Source of the DNA: Phaeodactylum tricornutum CCAP 1055/1
Lineage: Eukaryota; Bacillariophyta; Bacillariophyceae; Surirellales; Neidiaceae
Length of the DNA: 64,000 nucleotides
NCBI RefSeq assembly: GCF_000150955.2
Contig: NC_011675.1
Coordinates: forward strand, 124,001 to 188,000
Reading direction: 5' to 3'
Every line of letters starts with the position of its first letter. Position 1 is the first letter of the stretch. The translations under genes were made by a program, and so were the position numbers. Below, in pieces: positions 39,066 to 54,422 of this stretch. The notes below the pieces were generated by a model, which worked only from the letters and a program-made list of their open reading frames with translations, was not told the DNA's origin and did not search any database.

Positions 39066-41549
<2,484 letters not shown>

Positions 41550-42036: not shown

Positions 42037-43051
42037 CTACATGGGGACCTTGGCGTTTTCCAGATCGTACAAATCGTAAATGCCGTTGATCTCGGCCATG
42101 TACTTGTCAAAGTCAACCTTGAGTTTCTTGACCTCACCCGTTTTAGGGTCAAAGACGACGGGATGCACCTGAGGAATGGCCACACCGCCATCCTTGTAGC
42201 TTTCAATGCGCTTAGCCTGGATGACTCCGGTCTTGAAGAGGTTGACGCATTGTTCAATGACGTTCAAATCGACGAGGCGACGGTGACGTTCTTCGGGGTC
42301 CTTAATGGCGTCGAGCTCCTTGGCGTGCAAACGGTAGACATCCCGGATATTACGGAGCCAGATGGAGAGCGGCGGAGCGTGGTCGACATTGGCGACCGAA
42401 GCTCGGACACCGCCGCATTCGTAGTGTCCACACAGGATTACGTTGGGGATTTTAAGTACGTTGATACCGAATTGAATAGCCGACATGACGGCCAAGTCGT
42501 TGTTGACGACCATGTTGGCGATGTTGCGGACCGTCAACATGGTACCGGCTTCCGTGCCCATGATCATGTTTGGGGGAGCGCGAGCATCGACGCAGCCTAG
42601 AGTAGACGAAAGACAACGCAACAACAAGAAGCAATGCAAGAAGGAGGTAGCGTGTCAGTGCCATACTACGATGTAAATCTGACGAGAAGGGACCAACCTC
42701 CCACATCATGAATATCAATAACAGAGAGAATAGATTCGATTGCCCCTCATCATTGTCCTGGACCTCGTCGTTTCTGAAACAAAACCTACCAATGTACAAG
42801 TACTTGGGGGAGTGAACGGTTCCGAGGGTGTCGAAGTACGCGGGGTCACCGGCGAGCTTGTCCGCAATGAACTTATTGTTGCCGTCAAAGAGTTCCGACA
42901 CATCCAGATCGTAGCCGCCTTTGGCCGCCGGCTTGGGAGAGCTGTCTTTGGGAAGGGAAGTTTTTCCGAAACGAAAGAGTTTCTTAACGTTCAAGGCATC
43001 TACCGTAGAAAGAGCCAAAAGCGTGACAGTAGCAGCAGTAGCAAACTTCAT
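42037..43051 (-). CDS. beta-carbonic anhydrase, probably plastid/pyrenoid
   Basis: Two exons on the minus strand, 43051-42790 and 42596-42037, with a 193-nt GTAGGT...TAG intron in phase 1; 273 aa. The start MKFATAATVTLLALSTVDA is a signal peptide. The next residue is Leu, which is accepted at the plastid cleavage site. Joining the exons restores YLYIGCVDARAPPNMIMG, the beta-class motif with zinc Cys and the Asp-Arg dyad. ILCGHYECGGV adds zinc His and Cys. The enzyme interconverts CO2 and bicarbonate. P. tricornutum has two known pyrenoidal beta-enzymes (PtCA1, PtCA2). This is very probably one of them, but I cannot say which from sequence alone. It is divergent from an SLC4 bicarbonate transporter, with CRE-like sites between the two. 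Confidence 0.92.
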
Positions 43052-43947
43052 GGTAGAACAGTAAACTAGGTTGGTGTACCACACACTGTGTAAAAGAAAC
43101 GGAACGAGATTTTGTGTTGTCGACGTCCTGTCTGCGAGCTGTCTACACGGGAATTTAGCAGTTAGCAATTACGGCTTGCTGCTGATGTGTCGTGCACTTT
43201 TGAATGCGCCTGCGAGTCTACTCGCTACGCGCGCAGGTGGCGTATTCACACCTTGGTAAAACCTCCCCCGGCATGATGCAACCGAAACGCGTTTTTTGGG
43301 TTGGGTCGCTTCGCCTTCAACCACGAAGTGGTTCGGCGAAGGATCGCGCGGACGAAGCAGGCCTACTCTACATTCAAAAACTCGTGCGTGCGTTTGTTTT
43401 CTTTCGCAGTTTCGACCAACGACATCCACGACGGCTGACGTCAGAACGATGACGTAGTCGAGTCAACCCCGGGTAGAGCTATATTTTTACAAGCGGAACA
43501 CAATATGAATCGCGACGTCACATACTGAAATGTCATTAACAGATTCAGTATAATGCGAAACACTGATACCTTTATTTTGGTAAGGCTGTGTCAGAACTGA
43601 CGAATTCTGTATCAACGCCACGCATGATTGCTCGGAAAGTATGCGTTCTGTTTGAGCTATGTCGACGTCATGGCGGCCGTAAACACTGATGTGGTAAAGC
43701 AGCTCATTTCCTCTGTGTGACGTAGCGATCCATCAAGCTTCAATACTAGAATCAATTTCTGCTCTGGCATCTACTGCCGAAGCCCATGCCCTGTACAAAG
43801 TCTACGAATACTGACGTATTGAGTTTTCACAGTACCAGATTTCGGGAAAACCCTTCCGACGAAACCACATATCCCTCACAATTAGTTGACTGTCGGGAAA
43901 CTGCGAACCCAGATCCTATCAAACATTGGTCCTTTCCGTCCAGCAAA
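43052..43947. other. shared promoter region of the carbonic anhydrase and SLC4 genes
   Basis: 896 bp between divergent start codons. Besides the CRE-like cluster, an AT-rich CTATATTTTTAC at about 43479 could be a TATA-like element. Short frames in 43169-43452 carry no motif. An alternative in-frame ATG for the SLC4 gene lies at 43786. Confidence 0.55.
43436..43817. promoter_or_regulatory. cluster of six CRE-like TGACGT/ACGTCA sites in a bidirectional promoter
   Basis: Sites at 43436-43443 (full palindrome TGACGTCA), 43450-43455 (TGACGT), 43515-43520 (ACGTCA), 43665-43670 (ACGTCA), 43718-43723 (TGACGT) and 43812-43817 (TGACGT). They lie between the carbonic anhydrase start (43051) and the SLC4 start (43948). 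By chance about 0.2 such hexamers would be expected on both strands in 382 bp. The same core is known as the CO2/cAMP-responsive element (CCRE) of the P. tricornutum Ptca1 promoter, bound by bZIP11-type factors. The sites form two groups, 43436-43520 and 43665-43817. Confidence 0.75.
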
Positions 43948-45967
43948 ATGCCACCCAAGCACGAAAGTCAAGAAGACCTCAAGATGTCAACATCTAAACA
44001 AGATGAAGACGAAGTCCGCACCATTGACTTTCTCGACCACGACGATGGTAACCAAGGCAACGGCTGGGGCCGTGGTATCGTGAAAGACTTCCGCAAGACT
44101 GTTGGAACGCACTGGGTCAACGAAATGACAAACTTTAACCAGAAGTCGATTGCTGTTTCCTTTTTCATCTTCTTTGCGGCTGTAGCTCCCGCGATTACTT
44201 TCGGTGCCGTCTATTCCAAGGTGCGTTTTCCGACTTGTGTGTGTGTATGGTATTGGTCATCGCCACGTGTTCGTCTCTCGATAGTATCGTGTGTTCTTCG
44301 GGGTATCACCGAGTCACCGTCACCTTGACGCTTCCTCACATCCTCTTGTCTTATCCGCATTTCCATAGACCACCAATGACGCGATTGGTGCCGTCGAGAT
44401 GCTCATTGCGACTGCTTGGTGCGGAATTGTCTACGCACTTATTGGAGGACAGCCCATCATGATCAACGGTGGAACCGGTCCCGTTCTTGCCTTTAGTGCC
44501 GTGCTTTTTGATATTGCGGACAACATGGACGTCAACTTTTTGACTTTGAATGCCTGGACTGGACTCTGGGTTGCAGGATTCTTGATCATTGCGGCTTTCG
44601 TTGATTTGAACCGTCTAATGAAGCATGCTACGCGCTTCACCGACGAAATCTTTGCCCTGTTAATTGCGTCCATCTTCGTGATTGATGCACTTGGTAGTCC
44701 CTTTTCTGATGTAGGTATTTACTGGTACTTCACCCGCAGCCATGATTCGCATGACGAATTCGAAGACCAGGAAGACTACTCATACATGGCCACAGCGTTT
44801 CTCAGCGCCGTTCTCTGTCTGGGAACAACCTGGTTGGCCTTCTTCCTGAGGGATATTAAGTTTTCGCCCTACTTTCCCAACGATTCTTGGCGCACTCTCA
44901 TCTCCGATTTTGCCGTGGTTGCCTCCATTCTGATCTGGACTTTGATCGCCAACGGACTCTTCGACAATGTTGAAGTGGAGCGCCTCAATGTCCCGGATAG
45001 CATCACGCCGACTCAAATCTGCTGCACCGCCGATTGCATGACGTCGTTCCCCGATGACTGTCCCGACATTACACCGTACGGACGCCGTTCCTGGATTGTG
45101 GACCTTGGTGCCGTCAACGGAAAGTCCTGGATCCCTTTTTTTGCCGCCATTCCGGCTCTTTTGGCATTTATCCTTGTTTTCTTGGATGATGGTATCACCT
45201 GGCATTTGATCAATCACCCGAGCAATAAGCTTACTCACGGAGACGCTTACAATTGGGACACGGTTGTTATTGCTGCTATGATCGCCGTCAACTCTATGCT
45301 TGGTCTTCCCTGGTTGGTCGCCGCCACTGTCCGATCCCTCACCCACGTCAATGCTCTCGCCGAACGTAGTGAGAACGGCAAAATTATCAGTGTGCAAGAA
45401 ACACGCTTGACGCATTTGGGAATTCACTTGCTTGTGCTTGCTGCTCTCTTTGCACTGGATGTGCTCAAGCTCATCCCTGTGCCAGTCTTGTACGGAGTCT
45501 TCTTATATATGGGAGTGGCCAGTTTGGCATCCAATCAATTCTTCCAGCGCTTCCTCATGTTTTTTATGCAGCCCTCCAAGTACCCCCACGAGCCACACAC
45601 TAAGTACATGGCTCCTAAGCGCATGCACTTGTTCACAGGGATCCAGCTTGGACTTTTCGTAATTTTGACAGTATTTCGATCTATTTCTGTCATTGCCATT
45701 GCTTTTCCGATTGTCATTAAGGCTTGTATTCCAGTCCGGATGTACATCTTGCCTCGCTACTTCACCTCCGAAGAACTTCTCATGATCGATACCGATGACA
45801 GCATCGTCAACGAATATCTCGAGTACAAGGAGTCCAAAGGCGAGAAAGTACCCGTCCGTCATTGTGGCGAACAAGAGCCCGAGGAAGTTCCGATGCTTCA
45901 AGTGACTCAGCATCCTATCCGAATCGACGATGGCAGCGATGAAGAAGGGTCCGTCGAACAGGTTTAA
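43948..45967 (+). CDS. SLC4-family bicarbonate transporter
   Basis: Two exons, 43948-44220 and 44369-45967, with a 148-nt GTGCGT...TAG intron in phase 0; 623 aa. The start at 43948 has a good context (CAAAATGCC). An in-frame ATG at 43786 would add 54 residues. After a short acidic cytosolic N-terminus, the membrane part begins SVxFxxFFAAVAPAITFGAVY. Across the splice it reads TTNDAIGAVEMLIATAWCG, then GGQPIMINGGTGPVLAF, both core SLC4 motifs (helices 1-3). About 10-14 helices follow. VNSMLGLPWLVAATVRS, a conserved SLC4 block, lies near residue 407. Transporters of this family import bicarbonate in diatoms. The long cytoplasmic domain of animal SLC4 proteins is missing, as in algal and plant members. 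Confidence 0.9.
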
Positions 45968-47341: not shown

Positions 47342-48544
47342 TTACATATCTAGTCCAAACTTGAAAAAGCCATTGGCATTGCGGTTGAGGTGCAATGCCA
47401 TTTCGTAGCCCGACAAGCTAGCGCAGCCTCTCTCTGTTCGTCCCGTGTTCATTTCTTCCAAGACTTTCGTAAAAATCGCTGGCAAAGAACTGGGCACGTT
47501 GGGATAAGTTGAATTGAGCAGTCGCTTGCGCTTTTTCGAGTTCAGGGTTTGTACAAATGCATCGTTTTTGGCAACATAACGATCCCGACAACCCGCAAAA
47601 CCCATGTACGGGGCGTCAGTTTCAATCATGAGCTTGTCCAAAGGAACAACACCATCACGCAAGCATTCACAAATGCCTGCGGCTTCCTCTTTAAAAATGA
47701 AACCAGATATTGAAACAGAATAACCACGTTTGATGTAAGCTTGTAGCTCACCCGAGCTTCCAGTAAAGCAGTGAATTATGATGGGGACATTGACGTTCTG
47801 AAGTAAATCCATGGTCGCATCAAATGCTAGCCGCTCGTGGACAAAAAGTGGAAGTTGCAACTCTTCTGCAATTTCAATCTGCGCTTGAAACCATGGTATC
47901 TGAGAAGCGACGGGAGGAAATCCCTCTGAGGCATCAAGTCCGCATTCACCAACAGCAGTAAAGAGTACTGGTTTGGAACGCAACAGATCTTTTGCAATCT
48001 CCATGTGCTGCTCTAAACTTTTATCTCGCAAATTAGCATCGTTTATATGATAAGGATGGACACCAACGGTCGATCGGATAACCAAGGTATCTAGCGGAAC
48101 TTGTTGTAGAACATGAGCGCTTGCCTTAGCTTCTTCAATGGTACTGCTGGGAGAAAGTATCCCTACAATATTTTGCTCTTGTACGGCGTCCTGGAGCAAA
48201 ATATCCAAGGGTGTTGCCAGGCTTTTGTCGTTTGCCAAGCTGTCAATCCGGAACCGTTGTAAATCAATATGCATGAGATTGCAGTCCACGTCAATTAGCG
48301 GTGGGGTGTCCAGGCTGGACTGCATGCTTACAAAGGAGCAATTCCTCCGCGTCGTACTAAGTCCAACGAAAATGACAGCGGAGACTTGAATAGAACCTGG
48401 AAATTTGGAAGCCCGTGGAGCCACGACTTGAGGAGAAAGCAAACGAAAAGCCAAAGCTGAACGGGAAAGGCCCGAAGCAATTGCCATGTAAGACAAACAA
48501 TTCCTGAAAGACCTGCTCTTCGTCTTTCCCTTATATAGTAGCAT
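47342..48544 (-). CDS. TatD/TATDN-type metal-dependent hydrolase
   Basis: 400 aa from ATG 48544; ATG 48487 is an alternative start. An N-terminal extension of about 80 residues, rich in Ser/Arg with a hydrophobic patch (SRSALAFRLL), suggests organelle import, possibly plastid. The TIM-barrel motifs follow: LIDVDCNLMHIDL, STVGVHPYH, TAVGECGLD, LPLFVHERLAF, IIHCFTGSSGE and KLMIETDAPYMGF. Together they supply the metal-binding Glu, His and Asp residues. The first motif lacks the HxH seen in many TatD relatives. TatD itself and human TATDN1 (DIGxNL) lack it too, so this is a subfamily trait. The family has DNA exonuclease or deacylase activity. Confidence 0.85.
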   Translation of the reverse strand: MLLYKGKTKSRSFRNCLSYMAIASGLSRSALAFRLLSPQVVAPRASKFPGSIQVSAVIFVGLSTTRRNCSFVSMQSSLDTPPLIDVDCNLMHIDLQRFRIDSLANDKSLATPLDILLQDAVQEQNIVGILSPSSTIEEAKASAHVLQQVPLDTLVIRSTVGVHPYHINDANLRDKSLEQHMEIAKDLLRSKPVLFTAVGECGLDASEGFPPVASQIPWFQAQIEIAEELQLPLFVHERLAFDATMDLLQNVNVPIIIHCFTGSSGELQAYIKRGYSVSISGFIFKEEAAGICECLRDGVVPLDKLMIETDAPYMGFAGCRDRYVAKNDAFVQTLNSKKRKRLLNSTYPNVPSSLPAIFTKVLEEMNTGRTERGCASLSGYEMALHLNRNANGFFKFGLDM

Positions 48545-49937: not shown

Positions 49938-50966
49938 ATGAAGTTGGTTCCTGCGTGGACCATGATGACACGCAATGCTATATTCTCTGCTCGAAACCCT
50001 TCACATTTCTTGGAGGTCACGGCGCTCTTCTGTATACTACTAGCGAGCGGAAGGGGCGCCCGAACCAACACAGCTTTTGTCAATCCACAGAATCCGCGCA
50101 ACGGATTGACTTTCACTTCATCGTTCTCCGGTACCAGCCAACATGCCGGCAGAGTGACGGTTAATGAGGAGAATTTGGCTTTACCCACTGGTTCCGGACT
50201 ATACCGGGAATTTTCCCGACACGCTTGGGAAAAATTACAATCATCGGGGCTTTTTGTGCAGGAACCGGTGGAGGAGGAATGTGCGTCGAACACGGCACCT
50301 GCCCGTGGCCTTCCGTCCGGCAGTGTCGTGCAAATGGAGGTCCAGGCATTGCGCGGTTCCCTCCCCCAAGTCGCCTACGCTAGGTACGCCTTACTGGAAA
50401 CTTTGAAAGCCGGAAATGACGCGAATGTCACGCATCACGACGGAATCCAAGTCTTGAATTTGGTGATCTTTCCCTCAACCACCACGGACCTACCAGTGTT
50501 CGGCGCCGATTTCGTTTCTTTACCGGGGGGAAAGCATTTGTTGCTACTGGATGCCCAGCCAATGACAGAAGATGTACACTACGAACACTATTGGAGTGAT
50601 TGGTACCAGTCGAACCACATTTCCGAGATTTTCCCCTGGGGTGGGGATATGCCAGAGGCGGTCCAACGCTACGTGTCGAGCAAGGCACTGTGGACACGTA
50701 TGGCATCCAGCGAAGACAACGCCGGAGAGAAAAGAAATCCTGTAATCATTATTCAAACTGATTTGATGGCAGCTTTCCAAGCCCACTTGGAGGTGTATAT
50801 ACAGCTGCTGCACGATTACACTGACTTGGAGTCGAAGGACAACTGGAGTGCGGAATACCTCGACTATCGACTTACCAATGATCCCGCTCGACCTATGCTG
50901 AAGTCTTTGTACGGCGAGGAATGGACCGAGCGCGTTCTGAAAACCGTGCTATTCCCATCGCCATAG
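49938..50966 (+). CDS. plastid ferredoxin-dependent bilin reductase (HY2/PebB-like)
   Basis: 342 aa, intronless, from ATG 49938. A basic start is followed by a hydrophobic signal (LEVTALFCILLASG) and RTNTAFVNP, an ASAF-like motif, so the enzyme should be in the plastid, where reduced ferredoxin is available. The family signatures are clear: LNLVIFPSTTTDLPVFGADF, KHLLLLDAQPM, and FPWGGDMPEAVQRYVSSKALWTR around residues 235-258. The latter matches the PW-GG-x-P...LWTR block of PebB and HY2. These enzymes reduce biliverdin or dihydrobiliverdin to phytobilins. Which double bond is reduced cannot be read here. A phytochrome chromophore or a signalling bilin is the likely product, since diatoms have no phycobilisomes. 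Confidence 0.85.
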   Translation: MKLVPAWTMMTRNAIFSARNPSHFLEVTALFCILLASGRGARTNTAFVNPQNPRNGLTFTSSFSGTSQHAGRVTVNEENLALPTGSGLYREFSRHAWEKLQSSGLFVQEPVEEECASNTAPARGLPSGSVVQMEVQALRGSLPQVAYARYALLETLKAGNDANVTHHDGIQVLNLVIFPSTTTDLPVFGADFVSLPGGKHLLLLDAQPMTEDVHYEHYWSDWYQSNHISEIFPWGGDMPEAVQRYVSSKALWTRMASSEDNAGEKRNPVIIIQTDLMAAFQAHLEVYIQLLHDYTDLESKDNWSAEYLDYRLTNDPARPMLKSLYGEEWTERVLKTVLFPSP

Positions 50967-51075: not shown

Positions 51076-54000
51076 TTACGTTCCCCTACACCCCGGACTG
51101 CTGAGCCAGAAACCGGCCGTCTTGCTCGAAAGAGAATAGACTGTCGTTCCATCCTTACCACACAATGATCGCCAGCGTCCGTGCGTTTCTTGAATGACGC
51201 CTACGGCTTCCATCGCGGTGCGCGGCGTTTCAGACGCCAAATTGTTTTCCGCTTTGCCCTCGCTCGTCTTGTACCGCTTCAACCAATCCCGGAGCTTGTC
51301 CAAGTGACCCGGCTTGACACGCTCCAAATCTTCCAAGGAATGGATTTGGTTGGCGTCTTTGTCGTCCACGGCAATGCACAGAATCTTGTGGTCCGTTTCG
51401 CCTTCGTCAATGAGCTCAAACGATCCCAACACCCGACACGGCGTTAGTCCACCCATTTGCAAGGGCGACGACCCCAATTCGATAACGTCGAGCGGATCGT
51501 TGTCCCCACCGTACCCTTGCGCAGATTTTAGGTTGGGATCTTCCCATGTTTGTGGAATGAGACCATAGTTGAAAAAGGGCGTACCGTAGCTGTAGTGACG
51601 CGGCGAACCGTCGCTGTTGGTGTCCTGAGCAATGGGACTGTTGGACAGCATCTTTTGAATCTCCATTTTGGCCGTGCAATACATGGGAATTTCCGTCACC
51701 ATGTTGACTACGGTTTCGGATTGCCCCGATGGACTCAGGGGAATGTCGTGCCAGAAGGATTCGTATTCTGTACTAGTCAGGTGGAAGGATCGGGAACCAA
51801 ACTGGCCTTGATACGTGGTGCGCGGTGCCGTGGGGGGATCTACGCGAGGTTGACTCCACGGCGTCCAGCGTTGCACATCATCAATATTCCGGTAGTAGTC
51901 GACCACTTGATTCCAACCGTCCGGTACCATGAATCCGCTGGGGACGCAGTTGGCTTCGACCAGATCCGTCGGAATATTGGTGGGACTGCAGGGGGTGGCC
52001 CCGTTCCGGGCCAACAGTCGCATTTTACTGCCCGAAATACTGATAAAGTCCGCCAGCCGCGCTTCGTCCGGAATCTTCATAATATTGTCGGTGGTGTCGT
52101 ACATGACTTTGACAAAGCTCAGCATCTTCATATCTCCGAGGCCCGGCGAGTTCTGCAGAACGTAACGTCCGTGGTTACCGTCGTAGAGGTCATCGTCCGG
52201 GTGCGCCACCGCGTTGGGCGATCCTTTCATTCCGGCGGGATCGCGGCCGACCACAAAGTACGAGGCTCCCGCGGAGCGCCGTGACTTGGCGTGGAACTGG
52301 ACTTCGGTGGGTCCGGCGTAGACCATGGGAGCGGGCCAAATAGCCATGACGGTGGATTCCGGATCGAGGCCACCGGGATGGGTGGTGCCCGCTTGCAGGA
52401 CTTGTTCGTGCTGTTTGACGCGCACATCGAGCGGCACGTCGTCGGCCTTGGTCCAACCGCCCAGGGGACTCAACCACAGGACGGGTTTCTGGTACCCCTG
52501 ACGACGCAGGTCTTCACCGGCGGAACGCATCAGGTACGCGTGACCCGCGTGGGTCGGGTTACGCGTTTGGAAGGCGTACACCGTGTCGGCCCCTTTGCTC
52601 TGGAACTCTTGCACGAGCTCCGTCGCTGTTTTGCGCCACTGGTCGAGGCCGTCATTGTAGCGGATGCGATCCAGCAGTTCGATTTCTCCGCCAATCAAGT
52701 AGTCGCCGCCCCGATAAATGTGTTGAATGTAGGGATGATCCGGATCCACGACACCGTACATACGCGTCACGATTTCTTCCTTGCGGTTGGCGTAGACTTC
52801 GGGATCGCGTAGAATGGCCACGGTGTGTCCCATTTGTGTCACCAAAGCGACGGCGTTGTGGGACGAGGCGTCAATGAGGTCCTTGGTAAAAGATGTACAG
52901 GAGAGGGTGATGGGAATGGGCATGGAGACGCGTTGGGGGGCCGGATGGGCGGAAAAGTGATCAAAGTTCGTGCGGGTTTCCAGTCGCAGGGCGTTGCCCG
53001 TGAGGTTGAAGGGATCCGTGAGGATCGAATTAAAGTGCAGGGTTTCCAACAGTGTGCCTTCGCGCATGAAACCTCGGAGCGGTGAGGCCCAGCCTTCCCC
53101 AATGGTTTGCAACCAGTTGAGATCAATGTCGTTGATCAAGACCTTGGGGAGGGTCGCCGCCTCGGCGCGACGGGCTTCTTTGGATTCGTCGGGAACGTGC
53201 AAGTCCACCAAGACGTCCCCGTCGGGGTTGGGCAGACCGGGCGGACTAAGTTTGGGCGCCCCGACCAGAATTCCGTCTCGTTCGAGTCGTCGAAAGAGAA
53301 TCTGCACCGACTGTTCAATGGTGAGTTCGTGCGTTTTGAGGGTAATTTCTGGTTGCAAGGGTTCATCATAGGGGTCGTCGATGCAGGTAAAGTGTTTGAG
53401 TTCTCCGGACTCGACACGAGCGTACTGTCCCTTGGGATCGCGTTTTTTGAGTTCATCCACGGGCACGTCGAGGAATACTTCGTAAAAGGGAATGCCTTGG
53501 TCGACGTGACGTTTGCGTACGGCGTCGCGATCCTTGCGGTAGGGCGAGATGAGTCCGACGAGCGTGACGACACCGGCGTCGGCAAAGAGTGTGGCGAGTT
53601 CCCCGGTCCGTCGGACCGACTCGGCGCGATCGGCTTCGGAGAATCCCAAATCACGGTTGAGTCCGGTGCGGAGGTTATCCCCGTCCAGACGGTAGACGTG
53701 TTTCCCGTAACTCTTGACGAGTTGATCTTCGAGTGCGGTGGCAATGGTGGTTTTGCCGGCACCGGAACATCCCGTCATCCAGAGCGTGGCGCCCTTTTGT
53801 CCGACGGCGGCGAACCGCGTGGCCGGCGGGAGATGACAGGCATCTTGCGAGGCCCCGGCTTCGGCGGCGGCGCACTCGATAATGTGCGGCGGTGAGTGCG
53901 CGAGCGCCTGTTCCCGAAGCCGCGCCAGGACGGCGTTGTCGTCCATAGGACAGTCGCAGGCGGCGTCCGTCGTGGGTGGTGATGGCGGAAAGGGCACGTC

Positions 54001-54422
54001 GGCGGCGACCGGTACGACGTGGGGAGCCGTGGTGACGGGACGGACCGGGGTGCCGCCGGTGACGGTGTAGGCGTCCTGATCGCCGGTGCGGGACAGGACA
54101 AAGACAATAGCGAGGAGGACGCAAAAGCCGACACACAGGGGCATGCGTTCCTGTACTAAATGGTCGCCGTCTCCATTGTTGTTGTTGTGGTCGTAACCGC
54201 TTTGGGTGTTGTTGTTGTTGTTGCGACGAGACGTGCCCGAGTCGTCCTGTTATATGTATAGATAGATATAGATAGATAGATGTGCGAGTGGGAAGGAACG
54301 GGGAGAGAAAGTTGTGAGACGTTGCACGCACCAACACCACACTTCACAACAACAAGCAAAAGTAAAATTAAGAGCAGCAGCATACGTACAATGGACAGTG
54401 GCGCGTACGCGTATTTCGCCAT
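51076..54422 (-). CDS. APS kinase - ATP sulfurylase - inorganic pyrophosphatase fusion
   Basis: Two exons on the minus strand: a 33-nt first exon 54422-54390, a 143-nt GTACGT...CAG intron (phase 0), then 54246-51076; 1067 aa. The start is inferred: the long frame is open past its first ATG (54144) through a poly-Asn stretch to the acceptor, and joins cleanly to MAKYAYAPLSI. A membrane helix (LCVGFCVLLAIVFVLS, about 48-63) follows. APS kinase: P-loop TGCSGAGKTTIA, YRLDGDNLRTGLNRDLGF, LISPYRKDRD. ATP sulfurylase: QTRNPTHAGHAYLMR and MVYAGPTEVQFHAKSR. Pyrophosphatase: NYGLIPQTWEDPN and GGDNDPLDVIELG with its acidic metal ligands. The fusion activates sulfate to APS/PAPS and removes the pyrophosphate that would reverse the first step. 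Such fusions are known from diatoms and haptophytes. Confidence 0.9.
54257..54283. repeat. (ATAG/GATA)n microsatellite inside the first intron of the sulfate-activation gene
   Basis: Simple repeat of ATAGATAGATATAGATAGAT type within the 143-nt intron, close to the acceptor. Likely length-variable between strains. Confidence 0.7.

Follow-up and report, generated by a model that had tools for sequence, protein, structure and literature searches.

CO2-responsive promoters in diatoms and the locus

CO2/cAMP-responsive elements (CCREs) are reported to lie shortly before the transcription start, at -86 to -42. The present analysis concerns a window of 64,000 nucleotides from the diatom Phaeodactylum tricornutum (contig NC_011675.1, here C7:124001-188000), in which a β-carbonic anhydrase (CA) gene and an SLC4 bicarbonate transporter gene are transcribed away from each other around a gap with repeated TGACGT/ACGTCA hexamers. 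Genome searches covered the 27.45-Mb assembly with its 88 contigs (C1, C7 and so on), and papers cited by accession were available as excerpts, to which the statements taken from them are limited.

The closest described systems are the promoters of PtCA1 and PtCA2, in which CCRE1-3 act via CO2/cAMP (PMC7378808). Induction of PtCA2 is strongly light-dependent (PMC7378808), control of the CO2/light response of ptca2 is ascribed to two CCRE2 elements, and stromal redox at photosystem I (PSI) is implicated (PMC7464044). The bestrophin gene PtBST1, whose expression rises more than 40-fold when CO2 is low, carries six TGACGT/C motifs within ~300 bp (PMC11142338), and in Thalassiosira pseudonana a CO2-responsive cluster of photorespiration genes and genes of the CO2-concentrating mechanism (CCM) shares an upstream element of the P. 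tricornutum type (Hennon et al. 2015, via PMC7378808). Binding of a promoter fragment with TGACGT by the blue-light factor PtAu1a is about ten times stronger under blue light (PMC4721966).

The gap resembles the PtBST1 promoter in its dense motifs on both strands; PtBST1, however, is a single gene for which the excerpt describes no divergent CCM partner (PMC11142338). The T. pseudonana cluster shares with the locus the type of element, but it belongs to another species and no divergent gene pair is described for it in the excerpt (PMC7378808). A divergent CA/SLC4 pair was not mentioned in the literature searched, which did not include the primary PtCA2-promoter papers, and its absence from print is not thereby established.

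The layout and the site cluster are real. The half of the cluster on the CA side is very probably already known, as part of the published CO2/light-responsive promoter of PtCA2. New here are the three sites on the SLC4 side and the finding that, in the upstream regions of the four closest SLC4 relatives, the hexamer again ranks first among 2080. The locus is probably best read as two promoters of the cAMP-responsive element (CRE) type standing back to back, co-responsive but semi-autonomous.

Structure of the two genes

The β-CA gene (minus strand, 43051-42037) and the SLC4 gene (plus strand, 43948-45967) stand head to head, with the following features.

42037..42596, minus strand: CA exon 2, β-CA catalytic domain with CVDAR and HYECGG (Pfam PF00484, Pro_CA, E=1e-31)
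42597..42789, minus strand: CA intron, 193 bp, GT..AG, predicted by reading
42790..43051, minus strand: CA exon 1 with signal-like N terminus, by reading and by the paralogue at C1:495381; very probably PtCA2, Phatr 45443
43052..43947, no strand: divergent gap of 896 bp, ATG to ATG, by reading
43948..44220, plus strand: SLC4 exon 1, by profile and reading; probably Phatr 54405
44221..44368, plus strand: SLC4 intron, GT..AG, predicted by reading
44369..45967, plus strand: SLC4 exon 2, bicarbonate transporter domain (Pfam PF00955, HCO3_cotransp, E=1.6e-120)

The two predicted CA exons give a product of 273 aa, whose spliced translation contains both zinc motifs of Pro_CA (C-D-R and H-C) as CVDAR and HYECGG. 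Searches against the PDB matched β-CAs, with 1ddz as the best match (E=2.5e-51). The SLC4 product is 623 aa long, also from two predicted exons, with the HCO3_cotransp E-value referring to the main open reading frame (ORF), and its closest solved structures are anion exchangers/band 3. Its first 60 residues are hydrophilic and lack a signal-like start, a point on which the C7 and C1 paralogues differ. Gene identities and the head-to-head layout agree with the first-pass annotation, which had described a β-CA with a signal peptide and an SLC4 gene diverging from a gap of 896 bp.

An in-frame upstream ATG at 43786 was rejected as the SLC4 start, as the starts of the paralogues do not support such an extension; a start there would bring the site at 43812 into the SLC4 frame. 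The head-to-head layout was likewise rejected as notable in itself. Among ORFs of at least 200 aa, the window holds eight divergent gaps with the CA/SLC4 gap counted, and the seven others are similarly short, at 527-1393 bp.

Sites in the divergent gap

The gap contains seven TGACGT/ACGTCA hexamers on both strands, with TGACGT starting at 43436, 43450, 43718, and 43812 and ACGTCA at 43438, 43515, and 43665. They occupy six places, as two of them overlap in the palindrome TGACGTCA at 43436-43443.

43436..43443, no strand: full CRE palindrome TGACGTCA, CA-side group, by reading
43450..43455, plus strand: TGACGT (ACGTCA on the CA strand), CA-side group, by reading
43515..43520, minus strand: TGACGT on the CA strand, CA-side group, by reading
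43665..43670, minus strand: ACGTCA on the SLC4 strand, SLC4-side group, by reading
43718..43723, plus strand: TGACGT, SLC4-side group, by reading
43812..43817, plus strand: TGACGT, SLC4-side group, 136 bp upstream of the SLC4 ATG at 43948, by reading

The count of six sites given earlier is therefore confirmed. All six places fall within 382 of the 896 bp and form two groups of three, 43436-43520 on the CA side and 43665-43817 on the SLC4 side, with 144 bp between them. As is typical of CCRE-type promoters, several elements stand upstream in both orientations. The CA-side group lies at -469 to -385 from the CA ATG, and on the CA strand ACGTCA occurs at -404 and -390 and also at -672 and -766. 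The copies at -404 and -390 would fit the two CCRE2 elements of ptca2.

The PtCA1 triplet (TGACGT..ACGTCA..TGACGC) was located at C1:495234-495278, at -147 to -103 from the ATG, and its core hexamers are identical to those of the gap, so that the hexamer core is that of the published CCREs, as had been supposed. The order is also alike, with TGACGT, ACGTCA, and TGACGT(CA) in the CA-side group read on the CA strand and TGACGT, ACGTCA, and TGACGC at PtCA1. In contrast, start-to-start spacing is 65 and 12 bp in the CA-side group and 18 and 21 bp at PtCA1, the variant TGACGC was not found in the 896-bp gap, and the CA-side group lies 385-469 bp from the ATG compared with 103-147 bp. The PtCA2 promoter of Ohno 2012 and Tanaka 2016 (via PMC7464044, PMC7378808, and PMC11142338) is very probably the CA-side half of the gap; unlike the present description, the excerpted accounts contain no mention of the opposite SLC4 gene or of the three SLC4-side sites.

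At the rate of the rest of the window, 0.41 places would be expected in the gap, and the six seen correspond to a 14.6-fold excess (Poisson 4.8e-6). Compared with the other ORF gaps of the window (7 places in 21,559 bp, or 0.29 per 896 bp) the excess is ~21-fold. The earlier figure of 30 times chance was thus too high. Dinucleotide shuffles of the gap reached six places in 2 of 20,000 cases, and TGACGT/ACGTCA is the most repeated of all 2080 hexamer pairs in the gap, with six places against four for the runner-up. The seven other divergent gaps hold 0-1 places each, two in total, and the window overall is not enriched (37 matches vs 39 expected). A background of ~162 kb, a non-random sample made up of the window and the neighbourhoods of SLC4 and CA genes, was also scanned after removal of four CCM upstream regions; at least four places occurred in none of its 14,527 overlapping 896-bp windows. 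Applied genome-wide to ~30,600 stretches of 896 bp, the Poisson figure gives ~0.15 such clusters by chance according to our arithmetic; a comparable cluster does exist elsewhere, on C23 (stretch L043).

Recurrence at other SLC4 and carbonic anhydrase genes

Nine SLC4 loci were matched in the genome. The four closest relatives of the window gene, grouped by sequence identity and not by a tree, are C61:251558 and, on C60, the genes at 126743 and 124060 and a plus-strand gene near 120 kb. Upstream of these four, with the window SLC4 excluded from the counts, 12 places were found vs 1.91 expected, and TGACGT/ACGTCA ranked first among the 2080 hexamers. The counts are not independent, as two of the four share site positions, and 7 of the 12 places sit in one divergent gap between an SLC4 and an ABC1 kinase gene on C60. 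All four have their own sites without an adjacent β-CA. The four more distant SLC4 genes carry two of the hexamers in 4 kb. That the sites recur at these genes is the strongest new indication that those on the SLC4 side matter.

Comparison of the window gap with the promoters of the closest SLC4 relatives found nothing beyond short chance matches. A promoter inherited by duplication together with the C61/C60 SLC4 genes or PtCA1 was rejected, as blastn matches were essentially confined to exons.

On C60, three related SLC4 genes are clustered at 119879-126743, two of them sharing sites at -8 and near -270 relative to the ATG. The SLC4 gene divergent from the ABC1-kinase gene (C60:126744-128073) has seven TGACGT places in a 1330-bp gap, whose best count in 896 bp is six, the same as in the window gap.

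Five α-CA loci served as controls. The first count gave two hexamers in the five 1-kb upstream regions, with the ATG not found at one of the five. At C7:757819-758393, three TGACGT places lie between an α-CA signal-peptide ORF and a Rieske-like upstream ORF. For the bestrophin loci the starting ATG could be placed in only one of three, hence no count is available for comparison with the published PtBST1 motifs.

Identity of the two genes

A genome search with the CA protein returned two loci only, that of the window and C1:495381, although remote β-CAs could escape such a search. As the C1 gene carries the PtCA1 triplet, the window CA is very probably PtCA2, the second β-CA of Kroth 2008 (Phatr 45443; PMC2173943). 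β-CAs are known in only few diatoms (PMC5853954), and wide synteny of the pair is therefore not expected. Pattern scans of viral contigs for relatives of SLC4 and CA yielded 2 and 9 pattern matches respectively, none of which was confirmed.

Kroth 2008 lists three bicarbonate transporters, the plastid proteins 45656 and 32359 and a third, 54405, which is likened to the Cl-/HCO3- exchangers of red cells (PMC2173943). The sole match of 54478 (malate synthase) lies at C8:0.40 Mb, and 54279, a plastid fructose bisphosphatase (FBPase), fits C4:1.13 Mb, provided that gene IDs increase in contig order; the cytosolic FBPase would be the one on C22. Between these two points the only SLC4 matches are that of the window and one at C7:834 kb, which has a plastid-type start and fits 45656 by ID spacing (319 per Mb vs 330 on C1). 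From the ID order and the fit of the C7:834 kb gene to 45656, the window SLC4 is therefore probably Phatr 54405.

Regulation of the gene pair

In the probable arrangement of two CRE-type promoters, the CA-side group would drive PtCA2, which we take to be the pyrenoid β-CA making CO2 beside Rubisco, its location following the literature. The SLC4-side group, as a candidate promoter element, would drive the SLC4 bicarbonate importer, which lacks a plastid-type start and probably resides at the plasma membrane, where it would presumably carry out transport. Factors of the bZIP family, presumably PtbZIP11 as in the literature and possibly aureochromes, would bind TGACGT and activate both genes when CO2 is low and light is present, and high CO2 would lower both via cAMP. 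The co-response of CA and SLC4 would then follow from a copy of the common element in each promoter; head-to-head closeness may add mild coupling but would not be needed. The site at 43812 counts for two promoters, since at -136 from the SLC4 ATG it lies within the range of the PtCA1 triplet.

Published expression data agree with a common response in part. In RNA-seq, PtCA1, PtCA2, and 54405 were down at 1000 vs 400 ppmv CO2, and the other CAs were not significantly affected (PMC6340190). Provided that the window SLC4 is 54405, both genes thus decrease in high CO2 according to this study, which favours co-response and in this respect agrees with the first-pass annotation. At low dissolved inorganic carbon (DIC), 54405 was up 22-fold, in cells that were also nutrient-depleted, and the CAs reported as significantly raised were CA-6 and CA-7 only, both α types and at the later time point (PMC3457861). 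As no β-CA is named as raised in that excerpt, this counts against tight coupling of the pair.

Several points weigh against the two-promoter arrangement. Kroth 2008 describes expression of 45443 as constitutive, high CO2 included (PMC2173943), which contradicts the later reports on this gene. The mapping to 54405 is our inference, C22 holds an FBPase too, and 54405 might instead be an SLC4 gene on C60/C61, depending on where these contigs fall in the ID order. Furthermore, 54405 is named 'SLC4-5' in PMC6340190, and a review lists SLC4-1, -2, and -4 as low-CO2-induced (PMC7464044); if the numbering is the same in both, the window SLC4 falls outside the low-CO2-induced set. At one of the five α-CA loci (C7), the 575 bp that precede the signal-peptide ORF contain three places, though the other CAs are reported as unaffected by CO2 (PMC6340190), and similarly dense arrays stand upstream of genes without a known CO2 role.

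Next to two separate promoters, one shared bidirectional region ('divergon'), with all six sites as a single bZIP-bound unit serving both genes, seems unlikely and is not required by the evidence. The tight packing of the six places and, provided the SLC4 is 54405, the decrease of both genes at high CO2 (PMC6340190) would suit it, as would the rarity of chance divergent CCM neighbours, with 0.009-0.035 expected pairs for 20-40 CCM genes when 12,000 genes and ~27% divergent neighbours are assumed. However, 144 bp separate the two site groups, such sites occur without this partner at PtCA1 and at the four closest SLC4 relatives, the layout is ordinary among the divergent gaps of the window, and the 22-fold rise of 54405 came with no β-CA named (PMC3457861). 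A stricter form, in which a single bZIP nucleoprotein unit would fire both ways and fix the ratio of bicarbonate import (the first step) to pyrenoid CO2 release (the last step), having arisen in the few β-CA-keeping diatoms, is quite unlikely. The first-pass annotation had suggested one switch controlling both genes, which was not borne out: the CA-side group very probably belongs to the published PtCA2 promoter, the four closest SLC4 relatives carry their own sites with no β-CA adjacent, and in the study with the rise of 54405 the only CAs named as significantly raised are two α types, at another time point (PMC3457861).

A reading of the sites as chiefly a light/redox element within a broad photosynthesis regulon, under an aureochrome or other bZIP factor and PSI-side redox with CO2 as only one input, is improbable as the principal explanation though a genuine rival, and it is compatible with the two-promoter arrangement rather than exclusive of it. 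The pattern ACGTCA-N(0-20)-TGACGTCA occurs genome-wide in 20 match rows at 17 distinct places, as opposed to a single match when the pattern is reversed, although this control leaves dinucleotide composition unpreserved. Nine of the 16 other places were inspected, and six of these lie at most 600 bp upstream of an ORF, which speaks for such a regulon, as do the blue-light binding of PtAu1a (PMC4721966), the light dependence of PtCA2 (PMC7378808), and PSI stromal redox (PMC7464044). It is opposed by reports that the CCREs of PtCA1 and PtCA2 depend on cAMP/CO2 (PMC7378808) and by the remaining inspected places, two inside ORFs and one ambiguous. The ORFs downstream of the six are FNR-like; DUF6816; an ORF with a plastid-type start; an ORF followed by a class V aminotransferase ORF; SufB/D-like; and DUF1995, with the DUF6816 ORF divergent from a PPR-like ORF. 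Comparable arrays thus occur beyond the CCM, mostly at genes that in our reading have plastid-type starts, and the sites are therefore not CO2-specific; with arrays preceding FNR-like and plastid-type-start genes and PtAu1a binding TGACGT (PMC4721966), the earlier CO2-specific view of the motif was too narrow. The PtCA1-like triplet pattern was not over-represented genome-wide (4 matches vs 6 in the control).

That only the CA-side group works and the SLC4-side sites are incidental is very improbable: the published promoter work cited in the excerpts concerns the PtCA2 side alone and SLC4 genes may need few sites (C60c has one place in 1 kb and C60b two), but the 12 places over the four closest relatives and the reported CO2/DIC response of 54405 stand against it.

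If the SLC4-side sites of the two-promoter arrangement are functional, bicarbonate entry would also come under the CO2/light element already known from the pyrenoid CA. A single genomic locus would then connect the two ends of carbon concentration in the diatom, and the setting of uptake vs conversion by CO2 and light would become directly testable. Recurrence of the hexamer at SLC4 relatives and at FNR-like and plastid-type-start genes suggests a wider, mappable bZIP regulon.

Further arrays and other genes of the window

Upstream of the FNR-like gene, C21:216870 (L037:1971-1989) reads ACGTCACGTTCTGACGTCA; the PtCA2 arrangement, ACGTCATCGTTCTGACGTCA, is longer by one base. On C23 (L043:1840-2491), six TGACGT places occur in ~650 bp upstream of the ORF preceding the class V aminotransferase ORF, and the two ORFs are possibly one photorespiratory gene.

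In the window, a KRR1-like gene (40410-41549, plus strand) is convergent with the far end of the CA gene, and a TatD-like gene (47342-48544, minus strand) with that of the SLC4 gene. A ferredoxin-dependent bilin reductase ORF lies at 49938-50966 (plus strand). A single ORF of 1022 aa at 51076-54144 (minus strand) combines APS kinase, PUA-like, ATP-sulfurylase, and inorganic pyrophosphatase domains.

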